Source of the DNA: Planctomycetota bacterium
GTDB lineage: Bacteria; Planctomycetota; Phycisphaerae; Phycisphaerales; UBA1924
Direction: 5' to 3'
Assembly: GCA_018242605.1 (NCBI GenBank)
Contig: JAFEBP010000022.1
Coordinates: 1-64,000, forward strand
Length of the DNA stretch: 64,000 nucleotides
The position numbers were made by a program, and so were the translations under genes. This document shows positions 25,564-50,489 of this stretch, piece after piece; within the stretch, counting starts at the first letter, position 1; each line of letters starts with the position of its first letter. The notes under the pieces were generated by a model, which ran no database searches, was not told the origin of the DNA, and worked only from the letters and a program-made list of their open reading frames with translations.

Positions 25564-25709
25564 GCGTGGACGGGCGTTCTGCTTGTGTTTGGTCGGATCT
25601 TCCGGGGAGTGGTGAGCGGACGGTCTGGTGACCGACAAACGGGTTTGGAGATTCCCGCTGGTGCGAAATTCGCAATAGGAGTCTGTTCGAGACGTTCTTG
25701 CAAGAGTGG

Positions 25710-26345
25710 ATGGAGCCTGCCACGTTGACCGACGAGAACCAGGATGGTGGCGGGAGCGACGCAACTCAGGAAGCGGCGCAACCCGCGGATCTCGCGCCTC
25801 TCCTGGCCAGCGCGGCCAAGGGCGATGACGCAGCGTGGCAGGCGGTGATTGACCGGTACGCGAAGCGCGTGTTTGCGCTTGCCAAAAGCCGGTGCAGGGA
25901 CGTGAACGTGGCCGAAGAGATTACCCAATCCGTGTTCGCGACCATCGCCATCAAACTCGGCGCGGGCGAGTATCTGGAGTTGGGGCGTTTCGAGTCCTGG
26001 CTATTCCGTGTCGCGGCCAACCGTGTGAGGGATCACGTGCGGCGGCTGCGAAGAAACCCGGCGGTGGGGGATCCGGCGGCGTTGGACACGTGCGCCGCGG
26101 CGGAACTGGAACGGTCGGCGGCCGACCCCGCGTTGGACCGGTTGCGAGAAGCGATGTCTGCCCTGGCGGAGGCAGATCGGGAAGTTGTTGAACTACGCCA
26201 CCATGGCGGGCTGAGTTTCAAGCAGATTGCTGAGGTATTGGGTGAACCGATCGGCACGCTGCTCGCTCGGCACCATCGAGCCCTGCGCAAGTTACGGGAT
26301 ATGCTGGAAGAGCCTCAATCCGCCGAGAGGGGGTTGTCGACATGA
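25710..26345 (+). CDS. ECF-type RNA polymerase sigma factor
   Basis: A 211-aa sigma-70 factor with region 2 (VIDRYAKRVFALAKSRCRDVNVAEEITQSVF, of which AEEITQSVF is the core) and region 4 (REVVELRHHGGLSFKQIAEVLGEPIGTLLARHHRALRKL; helix-turn-helix FKQIAEVLGEPIGTLLAR). Region 3 is absent, as in all ECF factors. The ATG at 25710 is chosen, with a TTG at 25698 also possible. The TGA stop overlaps the next gene's ATG (ATGA at 26342), so the two proteins are likely made in step. This pattern suggests an extracytoplasmic signal system, which is inference. Confidence 0.92.
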   Translation: MEPATLTDENQDGGGSDATQEAAQPADLAPLLASAAKGDDAAWQAVIDRYAKRVFALAKSRCRDVNVAEEITQSVFATIAIKLGAGEYLELGRFESWLFRVAANRVRDHVRRLRRNPAVGDPAALDTCAAAELERSAADPALDRLREAMSALAEADREVVELRHHGGLSFKQIAEVLGEPIGTLLARHHRALRKLRDMLEEPQSAERGLST

Positions 26346-26833
26346 GTATGAACCGCGAACAAGTTGATTCCCACGATGGCGAGGTTTCGGCGTTGCTGGA
26401 CCGGCTCGCGAAGTCTGATGCGGCTTCTGCGCCGCAAGGGTTCGAAGTCCGCATCGGCCGGGCGACCGCTCCGATGCTGGAATCCGCCTCGACGCCGCCG
26501 ACGTTTGACTTTTCAGCCGCGGCTTCATCAAGGAACGACACGAGCCGCATCGGCGCCGGTTCTGCGCTGCGGCTCGCCGCGGCGATGGCGCTCGCGGCGA
26601 CGGTGGGCGCCGTGGTCGTGGCGCAGAGAGGTGGCGCGTTTTCTCACGTGGTGGCGCCGCAGACCCAGGTGGCCGCGGCGGAATCCGACGAAGCGTTGTT
26701 CGCGCTGGTTGGATGGGCCGAGGGACAGAGCGATGATCTGGCCGAGATCCGCACACAGACCGAATCGCTGGACAAAACGATCGGCGGCGGATGGGATTTG
26801 TCGGACCTGCTTACCGACGAGGGAGCATCCTGA
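26342..26833 (+). CDS. Membrane-anchored protein coupled to ECF sigma (putative anti-sigma)
   Basis: A 163-aa protein with one transmembrane helix (about residues 75-96, LRLAAAMALAATVGAVVVAQ). A cytoplasmic N-terminal half contains LLDRLAKSDAASAPQGFEVRI, and the exported C-terminal half is acidic (WDLSDLLTDEG). It overlaps the sigma gene by four bases and precedes the next gene by one base. Topology and context suggest an anti-sigma or sigma-tethering role. No ZAS zinc motif or RskA/RseA sequence signature is seen, so the assignment is contextual only. Confidence 0.7.
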   Translation: MSMNREQVDSHDGEVSALLDRLAKSDAASAPQGFEVRIGRATAPMLESASTPPTFDFSAAASSRNDTSRIGAGSALRLAAAMALAATVGAVVVAQRGGAFSHVVAPQTQVAAAESDEALFALVGWAEGQSDDLAEIRTQTESLDKTIGGGWDLSDLLTDEGAS

Positions 26834-26834
26834 A

Positions 26835-27800
26835 ATGAAACTCACGCGGCTGGTCCTGATTGGCGGAGCGGTGGGCATCTCAGGCCTTCTGGCGGGTCTG
26901 GGCGCGCCGACGCAAGAGCCGGCGCCGCAGGAACAACAGCCATCTAAGTCGGCCGAGCAGCCTCCCGAAGCGCGGTTGCAGCGGCCACGGGGAGAGCGGG
27001 CGCAGCAGTCGTTGGATCCCAAGCAGATCAAGCAGATGCTCGAGCGAAGAATGGAAGAGCTGGCGCGTCAGCAGGAGCGCTGCCGCGAAGCACTGACGAG
27101 GTTGGAGAAGGGTGAATCTCCGGCGGACATTTCCCGTGACATGTTTCCCAATGCCCGGTTTGGCGAGGGAGCCGGGCGGCCCGCGGGCGAGCGAAACGAG
27201 GACGGCGCCGGAGAGCGTCCTCCGCCGCCGGGTCCGGGCGGCGGTCCCGGGCAACCGATGGCGGACAGGGAAGAGATGATGCAGATCGTCAGGGAGCATC
27301 TGCCGATTCTGGCCAAGCGCTTCGAAGAAATGCAAGGGCGAGAGCCCGGGATGGGCTTGCGTCTGCTGCGGGGCTTGGCGCCGCGCATCCGCGAAGCGCT
27401 GCCGCTGCGCAAGTCCGATCCGGAGATGTTCCGTCTGAAAATGGCCGAGATCCAGGCGGGCGCGATGGTGATCGAAGCGGTGCCGGCGTATCGCCACGCG
27501 TTCAGGGCCCCGGCGGGTTCCGAGGCTGCCGGGAAACTCGAAGAGGCGGAGAAGAAACTGCGTGAGGCGTTGGCCGCGCAGTTTCAGGCGAAGATCGCGG
27601 TACAGACTCAAGAGGTTGAGAAACTCACGCACCGCCTGGAGGATATGAAGAAAGATCTGGATTCGCGGCGGGCCAAGGAAAAGGACGAAGTGGATTCGAT
27701 GCTGGAGCGAATCCGCGATGGCAAAGAGCCTCGGGGTCAGGGCGGGCCCGGGGGACCGGGTGGTCCGGGAGGGCCAGGCGGGCAGGGCGAACGCCGATAG
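26835..27800 (+). CDS. Exported coiled-coil protein with Gly/Pro-rich tail
   Basis: A 321-aa protein. The start (MKLTRLVLIGGAVGISGLLAG) looks like a signal peptide. The body has long charged helices: KQIKQMLERRMEELARQQER, MQIVREHLPILAKRFEEMQ, and a coiled coil from about 235 to 295. It ends with GGPGGPGGPGG repeats. The layout recalls Spy/ZraP-type periplasmic proteins of metal or envelope stress responses, but there is no sequence motif that proves this. It lies one base after the putative anti-sigma gene, so it is probably the output or the sensor partner of the sigma module. Confidence 0.75.
   Translation: MKLTRLVLIGGAVGISGLLAGLGAPTQEPAPQEQQPSKSAEQPPEARLQRPRGERAQQSLDPKQIKQMLERRMEELARQQERCREALTRLEKGESPADISRDMFPNARFGEGAGRPAGERNEDGAGERPPPPGPGGGPGQPMADREEMMQIVREHLPILAKRFEEMQGREPGMGLRLLRGLAPRIREALPLRKSDPEMFRLKMAEIQAGAMVIEAVPAYRHAFRAPAGSEAAGKLEEAEKKLREALAAQFQAKIAVQTQEVEKLTHRLEDMKKDLDSRRAKEKDEVDSMLERIRDGKEPRGQGGPGGPGGPGGPGGQGERR
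27741..27784 (+). repeat. GGxCCx-type coding repeat (Gly-Pro-Gly tail)
   Basis: Short tandem units of GGxCCGG type encode the GGPGGPGG tail at the end of the exported coiled-coil protein. Coding low complexity, not a mobile element. Confidence 0.7.
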
Positions 27801-27935: not shown

Positions 27936-30900
27936 TCACTGTCGAGCCGCGGGCTTGGCGGGGACCAACCGTTTGCGATAGTAATCCTCGTGTGCGCGTA
28001 TGCGATCCTCCGCGCCGGCGAGGTCGTACTCGACGATGAAGCGGTTCGCGGCGGCACCCGCGAGCTTTTTGGAATCCGGTGAGAACGCGAGCGACACGAT
28101 CGTGAGGCCGTTGGTGTCGAAAGACGCGAGGTTGCGGAGCGTGACGGCGTCCCAGATCTTGACGAGAGAGTCTTCGCCTCCCGTGGCGAAGAGCTTGCCA
28201 TCGGGCGAGACCGCGATCGCGGGGATGAGTCGCTGGTGGCCCCGCAGAACGCGCTCGGGTGTCCAGTCGGGCGCCTTGAACACTTCGATCGTGCCGAGCT
28301 GGGTGCTGACGAACATGCGGGAGCCGTCGGGGGAGAAGGCGACGCCCCAGGGCTGGGTGGTGGTTTCCACGCGCCGGGCGATCTCCTTCTTTTCAACGTC
28401 CCACAGCGCGATACCGCGTGCGAGACCGGAGACCGCGAGAAACCTGCCGTCCGGCGAGAACGCGAGGCCTTCGATACGCTTCTCCAGTGTGGGGAGCGTC
28501 ACCGCTTTCTCCTGGGAACGCAGATCAAAGATGCGTGTCACGCGGTTCGAATGGCCGACGGCGGCGTATCGGCCGTCGGGAGAGACATCCAGTGCGAAGC
28601 ACTCCGACCGCTCGCCCGGCAGCGAAAACTTCTCCGAGCCGGTGTTGGGGTCGAGCCCGCGCAGGACGCCGTCGTGGCAGGCCGCGAGCATGGTCCGGTC
28701 CGAATCGATGAAGTGGACCTGGCGGGTCCGGAACCCCGTGTTGGCGATGCTCCACCTGGCGAGGCGGCGACGTTTGGTCAGGTCGATGGTGTCGATCGTG
28801 CCGTCGCCGGCGCCCACGCCCATCATGGTGCCCCCGGCCGAATATGTGACGGAGAAGCACCAGGACTCAAAGCCGGTGATGCGCGAGGCCGAGACGTTGG
28901 TGGAGAGCGAGCAGCGGCGCAGGAGTCCGCCGTCGATGACCATCGTGGCGTCGTTGTCGCCCGCCCACGCCGCGGCCAGAACCGAGTAGCGTTGCCTGGG
29001 GAGCGGACGCGTCTCCATGACGCCTTGCGTGCTCATGATGAAGGGCCGCTCCTGCGCGGCCATCAGAATGCCGCGGTCGTCGGGAGCACAGGTCAGCGCG
29101 ATCACGGTTCCCGCCGAGACGTGGGAGCTTGGGGTGAGCGTCGTATCGCCCGGCTCCCAGAATGACATGTTTCCCGGCCGGTGCGCCACGACGAGCCGGT
29201 TCGCTCTGGATTCGAAGGCCAGCGCGCTGATGCCCGAACCGTCGGGCGGGCTCAGGTCCGCGACGAGCTCACCAGTTTGCGTGTCCAGCACATTGAGGGC
29301 GGAGTATCTCGAGACCGAGTCGCTTCCCGCGGCGAGCAAGGAGCCGTCCGCGCTGAAGGCGAGGTGTCGGGGTGCGCCGCCGACCCGCCACTCACGCACG
29401 AGCCCGCAGGTCCGGTTGTCCCAGAGCCGCACCAACGTGCCGGGGCCCGCGGTGGCGATGAAGTTGCCATCGCCTGAGAACACCGCGCCGCGCACTCCGA
29501 TGGAGCCGGCGAAGTTGTGAGATGCGCCGGATCGCGAAAAGGCGATGGCGTCATTGCGGGACGACCCAATGAAATAGCCTTCGCCGTCGGGTGAGATCGC
29601 GATCACCAACGGCGCGGGAATTGGCGAGACAATGTCGAGCGTCTTTTCGCCGCTCTTGACGTCGAACGCGACGACCCTTCCCGAACTGGACATCCATGCG
29701 ATCGTTCGCTGATTCGACGAAACGACTGGAAGCCCGGAAACGGCGGGGCCCTGCACGATCCACTGCGACGGGATGCGGTCGTACAACTCCCACAGGCCCC
29801 ATTTGGCCGAGACGGACTGAGTGTCGTTGAAGTACTCCCGCCACAGCGTGTCTTCGGCGAGCGCGAGATTGCCGGTCGCGGCCTCCAGGCGGCCGCGTTC
29901 GATGTTGGCCTGGGTCAGTTCGCTCAGGGCTTGGGCGCGAGCGGCGATGGCGTCTTCCTTGGCCTTGATCGCCTCTTCCCGGGATCTGATTGCCTCTTCC
30001 TTGGAGCTTCGTTCGCGGTCGCGGGCTTCGGTGGCCAGGTGAGCGAGTTGGCGCTGGTTCTCGGCGCTGATCGATGCGTAGATGGAGAACGCGATCAGCG
30101 AGACAGTCGCCAGAACGACCAGCCGGGCGGCGGTCCGGTGCCGGCGCATCTGCTTGCGGAGCAGGTAGATCGCCGAGTCGCGGCGGGCGGCGATGGCGTC
30201 GCCGGCCAGGAATCGCTGGATGTCCTCGCCGAAGGCGCCGGCGCTCGCGTAGCGGCGGTCGGGCTCCTTGGCGATCGCCTTGAGAATGATGACTTCGGCG
30301 TCGCCCCGAAGGGACTTGTCGAAACGCGACGGGGGCGGAGGCTCGTCCTCTCGGATCATGCGAGAGGCCTCGGGCAAACCCACCACCGTGAGATCGAAAG
30401 GCAGACGCCCCGCGAGCAACTCGTAGGCGACGATGCCAAGGGCGTAGACGTCCGAGCGAGTGTCGACTTCCTCCCCGCGCATCTGCTCGGGGCTCATGTA
30501 CGAAGGCGTGCCGATCAACTGGCCGGTTCGCGTAGCCATGGAGGCGTGGTTGCTCTCTTCGCAGGCGCGGGCGATGCCGAAGTCCACGACCTTGGGCTGT
30601 CCGTCGTTGCCCACAAGGATGTTGCCGGGCTTGAGATCACGATGTATGACGCCGCGTTGGTGCGCATGCTGCACAGCGTCGCACACCTTGAGCAGCAGTT
30701 CCCATCGGGCTTTGTGGTCGAGGCCATTCTCGTTCGCGTGCTGGGTCAGGGGACGTCCTTCGACCAGTTCCATCGCGAAGAAGGCCTGATCGGGAGAGGC
30801 TTCGTCCGCCACGCCCGCTTCGTACAACTGCGCGATGCCGGGGTGCTGCAGCCGTCCCAGCAACTCAACTTCATTTCGAAATCGTCGGAGCAGGGCGCGG

Positions 30901-31274
30901 CTATTCATTCCCGGGCGAACGGCCTTGAGGGCGACTCGTCGGCGGGGAAATGCCTGCTCGGCCTCGAACACGATCCCCATGCCGCCCTCGCCGATGGTCC
31001 GCAGCACGCGGTAGTTCCCCGTCAGCACCGGCAGCGCGAGGTGCTCCTTGGCGATGCTCGGCATGACTCCTGTCCGCCCAACAGCGGCCAGTCCGGCGCC
31101 GGTCGCGACGGCGGAGCCGTTGGAGTTGTGGTGATCGAGCAGGGCTTCAACCTCGGCGAGCAGTTCAGGGTCGTGACCGACTTCCCGCCGCACGAACTCG
31201 GCGCGGCGCGATGCGTCTACCTCGAGCGCTCGCTCAAAGGTCTGCATCACGATTTGAAAACGGTCATCACTCAT
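27936..31274 (-). CDS. Transmembrane Ser/Thr protein kinase with WD40 repeats
   Basis: A 1112-aa protein. The kinase domain (about residues 87-350) has IGEGGMGIVFEAEQ, VALKAV with the ATP Lys, VIHRDLKPGNILV (catalytic loop), VVDFGIA (DFG) and GTPSYMSPEQ. A membrane helix (LVVLATVSLIAFSIYASISA) and a charged coiled coil (EEAIRSREEAIKAKEDAI) lead to a long region of WD40-like beta-propeller repeats with SPDGRFLA/SADGSLLA units to the end. Kinase inside, propeller outside is likely if the one helix spans the membrane. ATG 31274 is chosen; GTG 31286 is an alternative. Divergent from the globin gene (about 120 bases apart). Confidence 0.94.
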   Translation of the reverse strand: MSDDRFQIVMQTFERALEVDASRRAEFVRREVGHDPELLAEVEALLDHHNSNGSAVATGAGLAAVGRTGVMPSIAKEHLALPVLTGNYRVLRTIGEGGMGIVFEAEQAFPRRRVALKAVRPGMNSRALLRRFRNEVELLGRLQHPGIAQLYEAGVADEASPDQAFFAMELVEGRPLTQHANENGLDHKARWELLLKVCDAVQHAHQRGVIHRDLKPGNILVGNDGQPKVVDFGIARACEESNHASMATRTGQLIGTPSYMSPEQMRGEEVDTRSDVYALGIVAYELLAGRLPFDLTVVGLPEASRMIREDEPPPPSRFDKSLRGDAEVIILKAIAKEPDRRYASAGAFGEDIQRFLAGDAIAARRDSAIYLLRKQMRRHRTAARLVVLATVSLIAFSIYASISAENQRQLAHLATEARDRERSSKEEAIRSREEAIKAKEDAIAARAQALSELTQANIERGRLEAATGNLALAEDTLWREYFNDTQSVSAKWGLWELYDRIPSQWIVQGPAVSGLPVVSSNQRTIAWMSSSGRVVAFDVKSGEKTLDIVSPIPAPLVIAISPDGEGYFIGSSRNDAIAFSRSGASHNFAGSIGVRGAVFSGDGNFIATAGPGTLVRLWDNRTCGLVREWRVGGAPRHLAFSADGSLLAAGSDSVSRYSALNVLDTQTGELVADLSPPDGSGISALAFESRANRLVVAHRPGNMSFWEPGDTTLTPSSHVSAGTVIALTCAPDDRGILMAAQERPFIMSTQGVMETRPLPRQRYSVLAAAWAGDNDATMVIDGGLLRRCSLSTNVSASRITGFESWCFSVTYSAGGTMMGVGAGDGTIDTIDLTKRRRLARWSIANTGFRTRQVHFIDSDRTMLAACHDGVLRGLDPNTGSEKFSLPGERSECFALDVSPDGRYAAVGHSNRVTRIFDLRSQEKAVTLPTLEKRIEGLAFSPDGRFLAVSGLARGIALWDVEKKEIARRVETTTQPWGVAFSPDGSRMFVSTQLGTIEVFKAPDWTPERVLRGHQRLIPAIAVSPDGKLFATGGEDSLVKIWDAVTLRNLASFDTNGLTIVSLAFSPDSKKLAGAAANRFIVEYDLAGAEDRIRAHEDYYRKRLVPAKPAARQ

Positions 31275-31395
31275 CAGGAAACTCACCGGATCGCGGGACG
31301 GCTATCTTTCGCGTCCCGTCGGATTGGCGACGGATGCGAGTTCTCGGCCCTCTGCCTAGCCTTTGGCGAGATCAATCTCGCACTGATGTACGGCT

Positions 31396-31930: not shown

Positions 31931-32557
31931 TCATTTGGTCTGCGATTCGATTTCCTTGCTCAACCAAGCTCGCGCAAACGCCCAATCATTCTTGACTGTG
32001 GCGGGGGAAACGCCGAGCGCTGAGGCGGTCTGCTCGACAGACAAGCCGGCGAAATACCGCAGCATCACGACCCGGGCTTTTCTCGCGTCGAGCGCTTCCA
32101 GCCGCGTGAGGGCAGCGTCGAGCGCGAGCACCTGATCACCGGCGTCTTCGGTCGACGGGTCCATGGCCGCGGCGTCTTCTGAGAGTTCGATCCGTGTGCG
32201 ACCGCCACCGCGTTTCTCGGTTTTTCGAGCACGGGCCCTGTCAATGAGAATGCGGCGCATCGCGATGGCGGCGGCGCCGAAGAAATGGCCTCGGCTGTTC
32301 CAGCCGCTCTCGCCGTGTCCTTCGGGGCCCAGCAGCCTCAGGTATGCCTCGTGCACCAACGCGGTGGGCTCTAGCGTGTGGCCCACTCCCGCGTTGGCTT
32401 CCTTGTTCATGTTGGAGGCGGCGAGCTTGCGGAGTTCCTCGTAGATGAGCGGGAGCAACTCCGCGGCGGCGCGTGCGTCGCCCTTGCCGGCCTCTTCGAT
32501 CAGGATGGTGACTTGATGGCGAGGATCGGTGTGCTTGGGCGGGGTGGGTTGGGGCAT
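31931..32557 (-). CDS. ECF-type sigma factor (planctomycete-type, Sigma70_ECF)
   Basis: A 208-aa sigma factor of the pfam07638-like type: LLPLIYEELRKLAASNM, EPTALVHEAYLRLLG, and region 4 with RVVMLRYFAGLSVEQTASALGVSPATVKNDW. The FGAAAIAMRRILIDRARA segment is typical of these factors in Planctomycetes. The ATG at 32557 is preferred; an ATG at 32608 would add 17 residues, and the frame upstream of both looks non-coding. It is transcribed divergently from the FMN reductase gene. It lies on the same strand as the kinase gene at 27936-31274 but separated by the globin gene. Confidence 0.9.
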   Translation of the reverse strand: MPQPTPPKHTDPRHQVTILIEEAGKGDARAAAELLPLIYEELRKLAASNMNKEANAGVGHTLEPTALVHEAYLRLLGPEGHGESGWNSRGHFFGAAAIAMRRILIDRARARKTEKRGGGRTRIELSEDAAAMDPSTEDAGDQVLALDAALTRLEALDARKARVVMLRYFAGLSVEQTASALGVSPATVKNDWAFARAWLSKEIESQTK

Positions 32558-49925: not shown

Positions 49926-50489
49926 ATGGAGCCGCAGAGTGTTACGCGGATACTCGAGCGAGCCGCGGCGGGTCACCCGTCCGGGGCCGAGTTGCTCATT
50001 CCCGTGGTATACGAAGAACTTCGGCGGTTGGCCCGGGCGTACATGCGGCGGGAGAGGGCGGATCACACTCTGCAACCCACCGCGCTTGTCAACGAGGCGT
50101 GTGCTTCGCTGCTCGCCAGCGAGGGGCTGACGTGGGAGGGACGAGCTCATTTCTTCGCGATCGCTTCCCGGGCCATGCGCCGGGTGCTCGCCACGCACGC
50201 AAGAGACCGGCGCGCCGCCAAGCGAACCCCGGACGGCGTTCGGGTGGATATGTCGGACGCAATCACCTGGGCGGCATCGACGGTTGACATGATTGCTCTG
50301 GACGACACTCTCCAGAAGCTCGAACGGTTGAACCCCGAACACGCGGAAATGGTGGAACTGCGCTATTTCGGGGGGCTTTCGATCGATGAGATGTCTGTGG
50401 TGCTGGGGTTCCCCAAGCGGACTATCGAGCGGCGATGGCGGGCGGTCCAGGCCTGGATCGCCCGCGAACTGCAGGCCGAAGGTTCTTGA
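49926..50489 (+). CDS. ECF-type sigma factor (Sigma70_ECF)
   Basis: A 187-aa sigma factor with VVYEELRRLARAYM, QPTALVNEACASLL and region 4 MVELRYFGGLSIDEMSVVLGFPKRTIERRWRA. The FFAIASRAMRRVLATHARDR segment is typical of planctomycete ECF factors. ATG at 49926. The kinase gene begins 17 bases after it, so they form a pair. Such sigma-kinase pairs are known in this phylum; phosphorylation of the sigma by the kinase is inferred, not shown. Confidence 0.92.
   Translation: MEPQSVTRILERAAAGHPSGAELLIPVVYEELRRLARAYMRRERADHTLQPTALVNEACASLLASEGLTWEGRAHFFAIASRAMRRVLATHARDRRAAKRTPDGVRVDMSDAITWAASTVDMIALDDTLQKLERLNPEHAEMVELRYFGGLSIDEMSVVLGFPKRTIERRWRAVQAWIARELQAEGS

Follow-up and report, generated by a model that had tools for sequence, protein, structure and literature searches.

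Does the tightly packed three-gene unit at positions 25710-27800 of this window form a sigma factor switch, and if so, which genes would it control? The window is the whole 64,000-nucleotide stretch of DNA that was analysed, bases 1-64000 of contig C14 from a 4.98-Mb draft genome (its "own genome"). That genome has 45 matches to PF07638. To our knowledge, a planctomycetotal genome can hold tens of ECF sigma factors, very few of them with a known promoter, partner or regulon. Two more PF07638-type ECF sigma genes lie in the window itself, at 31946-32515 (-) and 49935-50474 (+), the former close to a gene for a protein kinase with WD40 repeats (27936-31286, -) that is the downstream neighbour of the unit and lies on the strand opposite to it. 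The three genes encode an ECF sigma factor, a membrane protein (G2) and an exported helical protein (G3), and from comparison of the sequences the trio appears to switch on its own genes together with a set of exported proteins, all through a shared promoter. The features are as follows.

25672..25696, + strand: predicted autoregulatory ECF promoter (-35 GCAATA at 25672-25677, 15-nt spacer, -10 CGTT at 25693-25696); the exact site is also returned by a pattern search of the own genome
25710..26345, + strand: ECF sigma factor, 211 aa, ATG start, with Pfam Sigma70_r2 and Sigma70_r4_2
26342..26833, + strand: G2, candidate membrane anti-sigma factor, 163 aa; ATGA overlap (4 nt) with the sigma gene; position and topology kept
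26369..26491, + strand: G2 cytoplasmic two-helix module, residues 10-29 and 34-50 (AF2 block means pLDDT 90-96 over residues 11-50), with conserved R37 and GLExR[VI]..A[ST]
26555..26638, + strand: G2 transmembrane helix, residues 72-99 (a helix in AF2 and a hydrophobic segment)
26835..27800, + strand: G3, exported helical protein, 321 aa, candidate extracytoplasmic partner of G2
27261..27716, + strand: G3 conserved helical core, residues 143-294 (helices only in AF2, 10-residue block means pLDDT 82-98)

A sequence-only reading of this DNA had described three genes with a 4-base overlap and a 1-base spacing, and the gene coordinates confirm both (the gap between G2 and G3 is 1 nt). An MnmE gene lies upstream. 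A TTG start for the sigma gene at 25698 is less likely than the ATG because it falls only 2 nt behind the -10 element.

Conservation of the trio was the test set beforehand for that reading, and the trio is conserved within one order of Planctomycetota. The window sigma scores above the curated Pfam cut-offs for both Sigma70_r2 and Sigma70_r4_2 and has only the sigma2 and sigma4 domains. Matches to it at E<=1e-20 occur in 58 of 61 genomes sampled from the order (own genome counted), with one strong match per genome in 57 of the 58 and two in G040; these are called orthologues for short, on the basis of single strong matches and without a tree. A phylum-wide survey at E<=1e-25, which scored no more than ten candidates per genome and may therefore have misses, finds the sigma in 12 of 294 genomes: 12 of the 15 from the window's order and 0 of the 279 outside it (none of 7 from other parts of the class and none of 272 from beyond the class). 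Eight of the ten nearest loci in named records come from Phycisphaerae, Phycisphaerales and other Planctomycetota MAGs; the two weak ones are actinobacterial.

The partners are traced less evenly. G3 has a match at E<=0.001 in 44 of the 61 genomes and stands beside sigma in 39 of them; sequence matches put it next to sigma in f1, f2, f3, f5 and f6, five families of the order, and gene position does so in f4. The G3 match of G024 and G055 is elsewhere or on another contig than sigma, and G029, G041 and G053 have a G3 match with no sigma match at E<=1e-20. Of 67 sigma loci, 36 have a G3 relative by tblastn (34 of 65 once two duplicates are set aside); without exception it is on the strand of sigma, and it begins 964-2323 nt downstream of the point where the sigma match starts. 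G2 was found by sequence in just 9 of 61 genomes because it is short and variable; in the 49 relatives kept it was recognised by position and topology. The retained chains of sigma, G2 and G3 genes, 49 from relatives and one from the window, give 50 proteins per family. Of the 67 relative loci, 17 were removed by hand, either as duplicates (two) or because of contig ends or doubtful gene calls, and L100 fell outside the length limits, which were set at 130-275 aa for G2 and 250-540 aa for G3 (those kept span 133-272 and 252-535 aa). Close packing is common among the 49 relatives: 30 have an overlap of 1-11 nt between the sigma and G2 genes, and 28 have one between the G2 and G3 genes.

G2 is a membrane protein that probably restrains the sigma factor. 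The single membrane helix read earlier from the window holds for the family, since 49 of 50 G2 proteins have exactly one hydrophobic segment, preceded by a median of 73 residues and followed by 75; charge bias puts the N-terminus inside in 41 of the 49, the opposite way in 6 and equal in 2. An AF2 model built from an alignment of 38 sequences (overall pLDDT 73, pTM 0.32) has the two confident helices and the transmembrane helix listed above, followed by less confident outer helices. The cytoplasmic part is thus two helices in this single-chain model, where the class I hallmark is a three-helix bundle plus a fourth helix. The arginine of the second helix (R37 in the window) is conserved in 44 of 50 proteins, and A[ST] is conserved there also, in a family that is poorly conserved overall (12 of 50 do not fit the second-helix pattern). 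The same reading had seen no known anti-sigma signature, and this too stands: window G2 has no Pfam or NCBIfam match above cut-off, the HxxxCxxC zinc motif of the ZAS subtype of class I anti-sigma factors occurs in 0 of 50 proteins, and G2 matches no anti-sigma factor among PDB sequences and none known by sequence otherwise, two of 38 members weakly touching DUF3379 among the matches listed. With two cytoplasmic helices, a transmembrane helix and no zinc motif, the modelled design would resemble that of class II (CnrY-type) anti-sigma factors, and G2 represents a new candidate family of minimal anti-sigma factors. The second-helix element is found twice before the transmembrane helix in 9 of 50 proteins by pattern. 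The trusted cases (L066, L096, L098, L101) carry GLExRV..A[ST] twice, as if a putative sigma-binding module had been duplicated; in L061, L089, L093 and L095 the repeat was seen by eye and missed by the pattern.

A conserved putative promoter before the sigma gene, and the regulon predicted from it, go beyond the sequence-only reading. Of the 66 regions upstream of sigma (65 loci plus the window), 52 carry the motif GCAATN-N15/16-CGTT, with a spacer of 15 in 40 and of 16 in 12; the -10 is always CGTT in a count that allowed spacers of 13-20 and CGTT, CGTC or CGTA. In a first-order Markov control, 1.2 of the 66 regions have it on average and never more than 4, a comparison that flatters the motif because it was first read by eye from the same sequences in which it was then counted, with ties given to CGTT and spacer 15. 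The 14 regions that lack it are those of L038 and L041-L045 (all six named-record loci examined), of L083, L086, L088, L090 and L100 (five of the six f2 loci), and of L094, L105 and L107, L105 being the second sigma copy of G040. Autoregulation through GCAAT[A]/CGTT is therefore unsupported in f2. The window ATG lies 13 nt behind CGTT, and at 47 of the 52 motif loci the first start codon in frame comes 4-27 nt after it, so that the sigma mRNA leader would be very short or absent. We take the spacing of GCAAT[A]-N15/16-CGTT to fit ECF promoters, and the motif is predicted to be the autoregulatory promoter of the trio. In the part of PMC8103513 available, the ECF promoter hallmark is AAC at -35 and CGT at -10, which holds for many ECF factors and not all; the -10 of the motif agrees with this CGT, and its -35, AAT, is a variant of AAC.

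Counted over whole genomes, the strict site (GCAATA) is in excess across the order. It occurs 415 times in the 61 genomes vs 113 for the backward pattern, a 3.7-fold excess, with more sites than controls in 53 genomes, fewer in 2 and equal numbers in 6. The excess beyond the order is small, yet also significant: 89:57 in the rest of the class (7 genomes, Wilcoxon p 0.02) and 755:598, or roughly 1.3-fold, in genomes from beyond the class (the first 90 of 272 listed, Wilcoxon p 0.003). The own genome has 5 strict sites vs 1 control; they precede sigma and the exported L120, L123 and L124, with L121 falling within a gene. Freeing one more base raises this to 36 sites vs 8 and adds members of the families A and B described below, but many of these sites are inside genes. 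Ten of the 36 precede a signal-like ORF (L120, L123, L124, L215, L218, L229, L231, L235, L236, L239); the frame is open through the site in four of these (L120, L215, L231, L236), and L215 looks like a multi-TM protein. As background, a site lies <=200 nt upstream in 1 of 492 neighbouring genes with the strict pattern and in 8 of 492 with the relaxed one. L236 (1555-2805, +), signal-like and behind a relaxed site, has a match to Peptidase_C2 (calpain).

The predicted regulon is drawn from 95 of 116 strict sites in ten genomes: the own genome, six near relatives, and G048, G044 and G051, chosen for their many sites. A credible ORF follows within 130 nt at 69 of the 95, and 8 of the 69 are sigma itself; the other 26 loci were dropped, among them L123 and L184, both exported-looking, which fell to the coding score. 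Among the 61 non-sigma targets, 44 look exported vs 83 of 402 neighbouring genes (21%), by a test that is crude and for which start codons were first chosen differently in targets and neighbours. Allowing any early Met as start gives 47 of 61 vs 103 of 402, and with that test the own genome and six near relatives alone give 16 of 22. Sites L168 and L228 lie in coding sequence of family A-like genes and were set aside by eye as conserved coding; L168 nevertheless stayed in the 61-ORF count, as not exported. Three exported families recur. Family A stands behind a site in five genomes (G001, G013, G006, G005 and the own genome; L164, L166, L179, L181, L235), family B in four (G001, G013, G003 and the own genome; L158, L161, L182, L229), and family C in two (L184 in G003 and own L123), the last pair joined by BLASTP at E 0.001, low-complexity masked, over the first 48 residues. 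Own L229 and L235 carry the relaxed sites GCAATG and GCAATC. L235, L181, L182, L139 and L204 score above the Pfam cut-off for LTXXQ (PF07813), a family that we take to include Spy and CpxP, and L166 scores just below. Own L124 is a sulfatase by Pfam, eight further sulfatases among the G048 targets were named by eye, and L125 (G048) is a PSCyt2/PSD1 protein. Several targets are Gly/Pro/Arg-rich, like G3; L123 (256-1470, -), with collagen-like repeats, and L184 (561-1466, -) are exported proteins of this kind behind a predicted promoter. Unnamed families of exported proteins thereby gain a predicted regulatory context, although other ECF factors, of the 45 with PF07638 matches in the own genome, could share the promoter.

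In our judgement the three genes probably make up an ECF sigma switch that regulates itself, includes a membrane anti-sigma factor and an exported partner, and has a group of exported proteins as its output. In the resting state, sigma would be kept at the membrane by the pair of cytoplasmic helices in G2. G3, once exported, would interact with the outer segment of G2 and in this way set or report the state of the envelope; this is the weakest step of the scheme. Once released by G2, sigma would, as the comparative evidence suggests, direct RNA polymerase to GCAAT[A]-N15/16-CGTT promoters. One of these would be its own, giving positive feedback on the trio. The other promoters would drive genes whose products are exported: close to the window's lineage, LTXXQ-type (Spy/CpxP-like) helical proteins and two further recurrent families; in a different family of the order, sulfatases and PSCyt/PSD1 proteins. 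An output of exported proteins would make the trio work like an envelope-directed ECF system. The order of sigma factor, single-TM protein and exported helical protein is as the sequence-only reading gave it, while the roles of anti-sigma factor and sensor are ones that we infer. A larger claim, possible but somewhat short of an even chance, is that the trio heads a core regulon for the envelope throughout the order, in which sigma, a minimal anti-sigma factor that has two helices and belongs to a new sequence family (its sigma-binding module tandemly duplicated in some members) and a new-family exported partner that gauges the state of exported proteins would govern recurrent, mostly undescribed exported families. 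It would do so via one promoter type with a variant -35 (AAT), common to five of the six sampled families and replaced in the sixth.

The role of G3 is where the strongest alternative enters. Its export and long helices, claimed earlier from the window, hold up in the family: 48 of 50 G3 proteins look exported, none of the 50 has a lipobox or a further TM segment, and the AF2 model (44 sequences; overall pLDDT 78, pTM 0.58) has an all-helical core. The GGPGG tail is present in window G3 and is not seen as a conserved feature in the family alignment. Window G3, Gly/Pro/Arg-rich and helical, has no Pfam or NCBIfam match above cut-off, so that, like G2, it still falls in no described family. Sequence comparison with the PDB gave nothing usable, Foldseek with the model gave no match at E<=0.001, and the best VIA-align match (Z 10.5, rmsd 32) reflects generic long helices. 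BAR domains, coiled coils and periplasmic adaptor hairpins came up in the fold searches and were set aside as generic long-helix matches; Spy, CpxP and CnrX are absent among the fold matches listed, which is uninformative. Kinship of G3 with the LTXXQ-type targets was also rejected, hhalign giving a probability of 11% for family B and 1% for family A, and hmmsearch touching only L162 and L204, in low-complexity sequence. It is possible, though we are doubtful, that sigma and G2 alone make up the switch and that G3, rather than being a sensor, is simply the regulon's first exported product and is co-transcribed for the sake of its expression level. G3 does look exported like the other targets, it shares with several of them a Gly/Pro/Arg-rich, helical character, and its interaction with G2 is one that we infer only. 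Its place beside sigma in 39 genomes, through five families by sequence and f4 by position, is nevertheless the usual sign of a regulator and not of cargo.

The neighbourhood in relatives raises a second alternative. An OppC-like permease gene (named by reading its sequence) lies downstream on the same strand at 19 of 59 relative loci and also at 6 of 8 named-record loci, in families f1, f2 and f4. These are L065, L067, L073-L075, L077-L086, L088, L090, L091 and L100, and L038 and L041-L045, accompanied in part by OppA- or OppD-like genes. That the trio is a local regulator of a neighbouring oligopeptide-type (Opp/Dpp) ABC transporter would account for this linkage, and several permease-linked loci are without the promoter motif, so the system may be rewired there. 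We think it unlikely as a general account: the permease was not found at the other 40 relative loci (three with <800 nt behind sigma) or at the window, where the opposite-strand kinase gene follows, and the predicted regulon is wider than a transporter. The linkage is perhaps old and lost in part of the order, and the permease perhaps one output and not the main function of the switch. Neither MnmE nor YidC was found by tblastn at E<=1e-4 in 68 relative loci, so the window's upstream neighbours look incidental. At L049 an ECF sigma-like gene and a prepilin-like partner (named by eye) lie divergently upstream of the trio on the opposite strand, at -1166..-564 and -2405..-1170 when counted from where the sigma match begins. 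Comparable ORFs, alike in size, location and strand, are found at a number of loci in L049's family and not at the window.

Very improbable, finally, is a CnrYXH-like metal-sensing system with G3 as a CnrX-like periplasmic metal sensor: the same three kinds of part are there, with a two-helix cytoplasmic module in G2 as described for CnrY in the portions available of the papers cited below, but Metal_resist (PF13801) has no match in window G3 and, among the matches listed, touches one of 44 family members weakly (E 0.013), G3 proteins have 0-2 Cys each, no column of their alignment has His or Cys commonest in half or more, and no metal efflux gene was recognised among the target starts listed, a minority of the targets having been scanned against Pfam. 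The earlier idea of metal stress is accordingly dropped. The gene order of CnrYXH also differs from that of the trio.

Compared with known systems, the trio is closest in plan to two. CnrYXH of Cupriavidus metallidurans comprises an ECF sigma factor, an anti-sigma factor with a two-helix cytoplasmic part and a periplasmic sensor (PMC4598750, PMC7406223), and of the two helices of class II CnrY the first lies on sigma4 and the last on sigma2 (PMC7406223), as far as the available parts of these sources describe them. The trio is like it in having an ECF sigma factor, a G2 with two predicted cytoplasmic helices and an exported third protein, a likeness of design that does not imply homology. Unlike CnrYXH, it has no metal signature and no detected sequence similarity, and its predicted regulon is one of exported proteins and not of metal efflux. 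RpoE-RseA-RseB of Escherichia coli is, in the accessible portions of PMC4598750 and PMC8103513, an autoregulated envelope sigma factor with a membrane anti-sigma factor and a periplasmic regulator, the same plan that we propose for the trio. RseA has a three-helix bundle and a fourth helix (PMC4598750, again in part), whereas two cytoplasmic helices are predicted for G2; unlike RseB, G3 has no match to a named periplasmic regulator detected by Pfam, PDB sequence or profile searches. LTXXQ (Spy/CpxP) proteins enter as predicted targets (L139, L204, L182, L181 and own L235); G3 itself has no PF07813 match, that family not being among the three listed for window G3 at E<=0.1. In R. baltica, the ECF factor RB10049 was suggested, in the part of PMC2754498 available, to control a protein that has PSD1 and PSC2 domains; the sigma of the trio is likewise a Planctomycetota ECF factor with a PSCyt2/PSD1 protein among its predicted targets (L125). 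Nothing was recognised in the literature, covered in part, that describes the sigma, promoter or partners of this trio, which does not imply absence from print. The sigma is kept as one strong match per genome, and its promoter, partner and regulon are now testable predictions. The kind of system is already known; its shared promoter and recurrent exported targets set this trio apart from other sigma trios.
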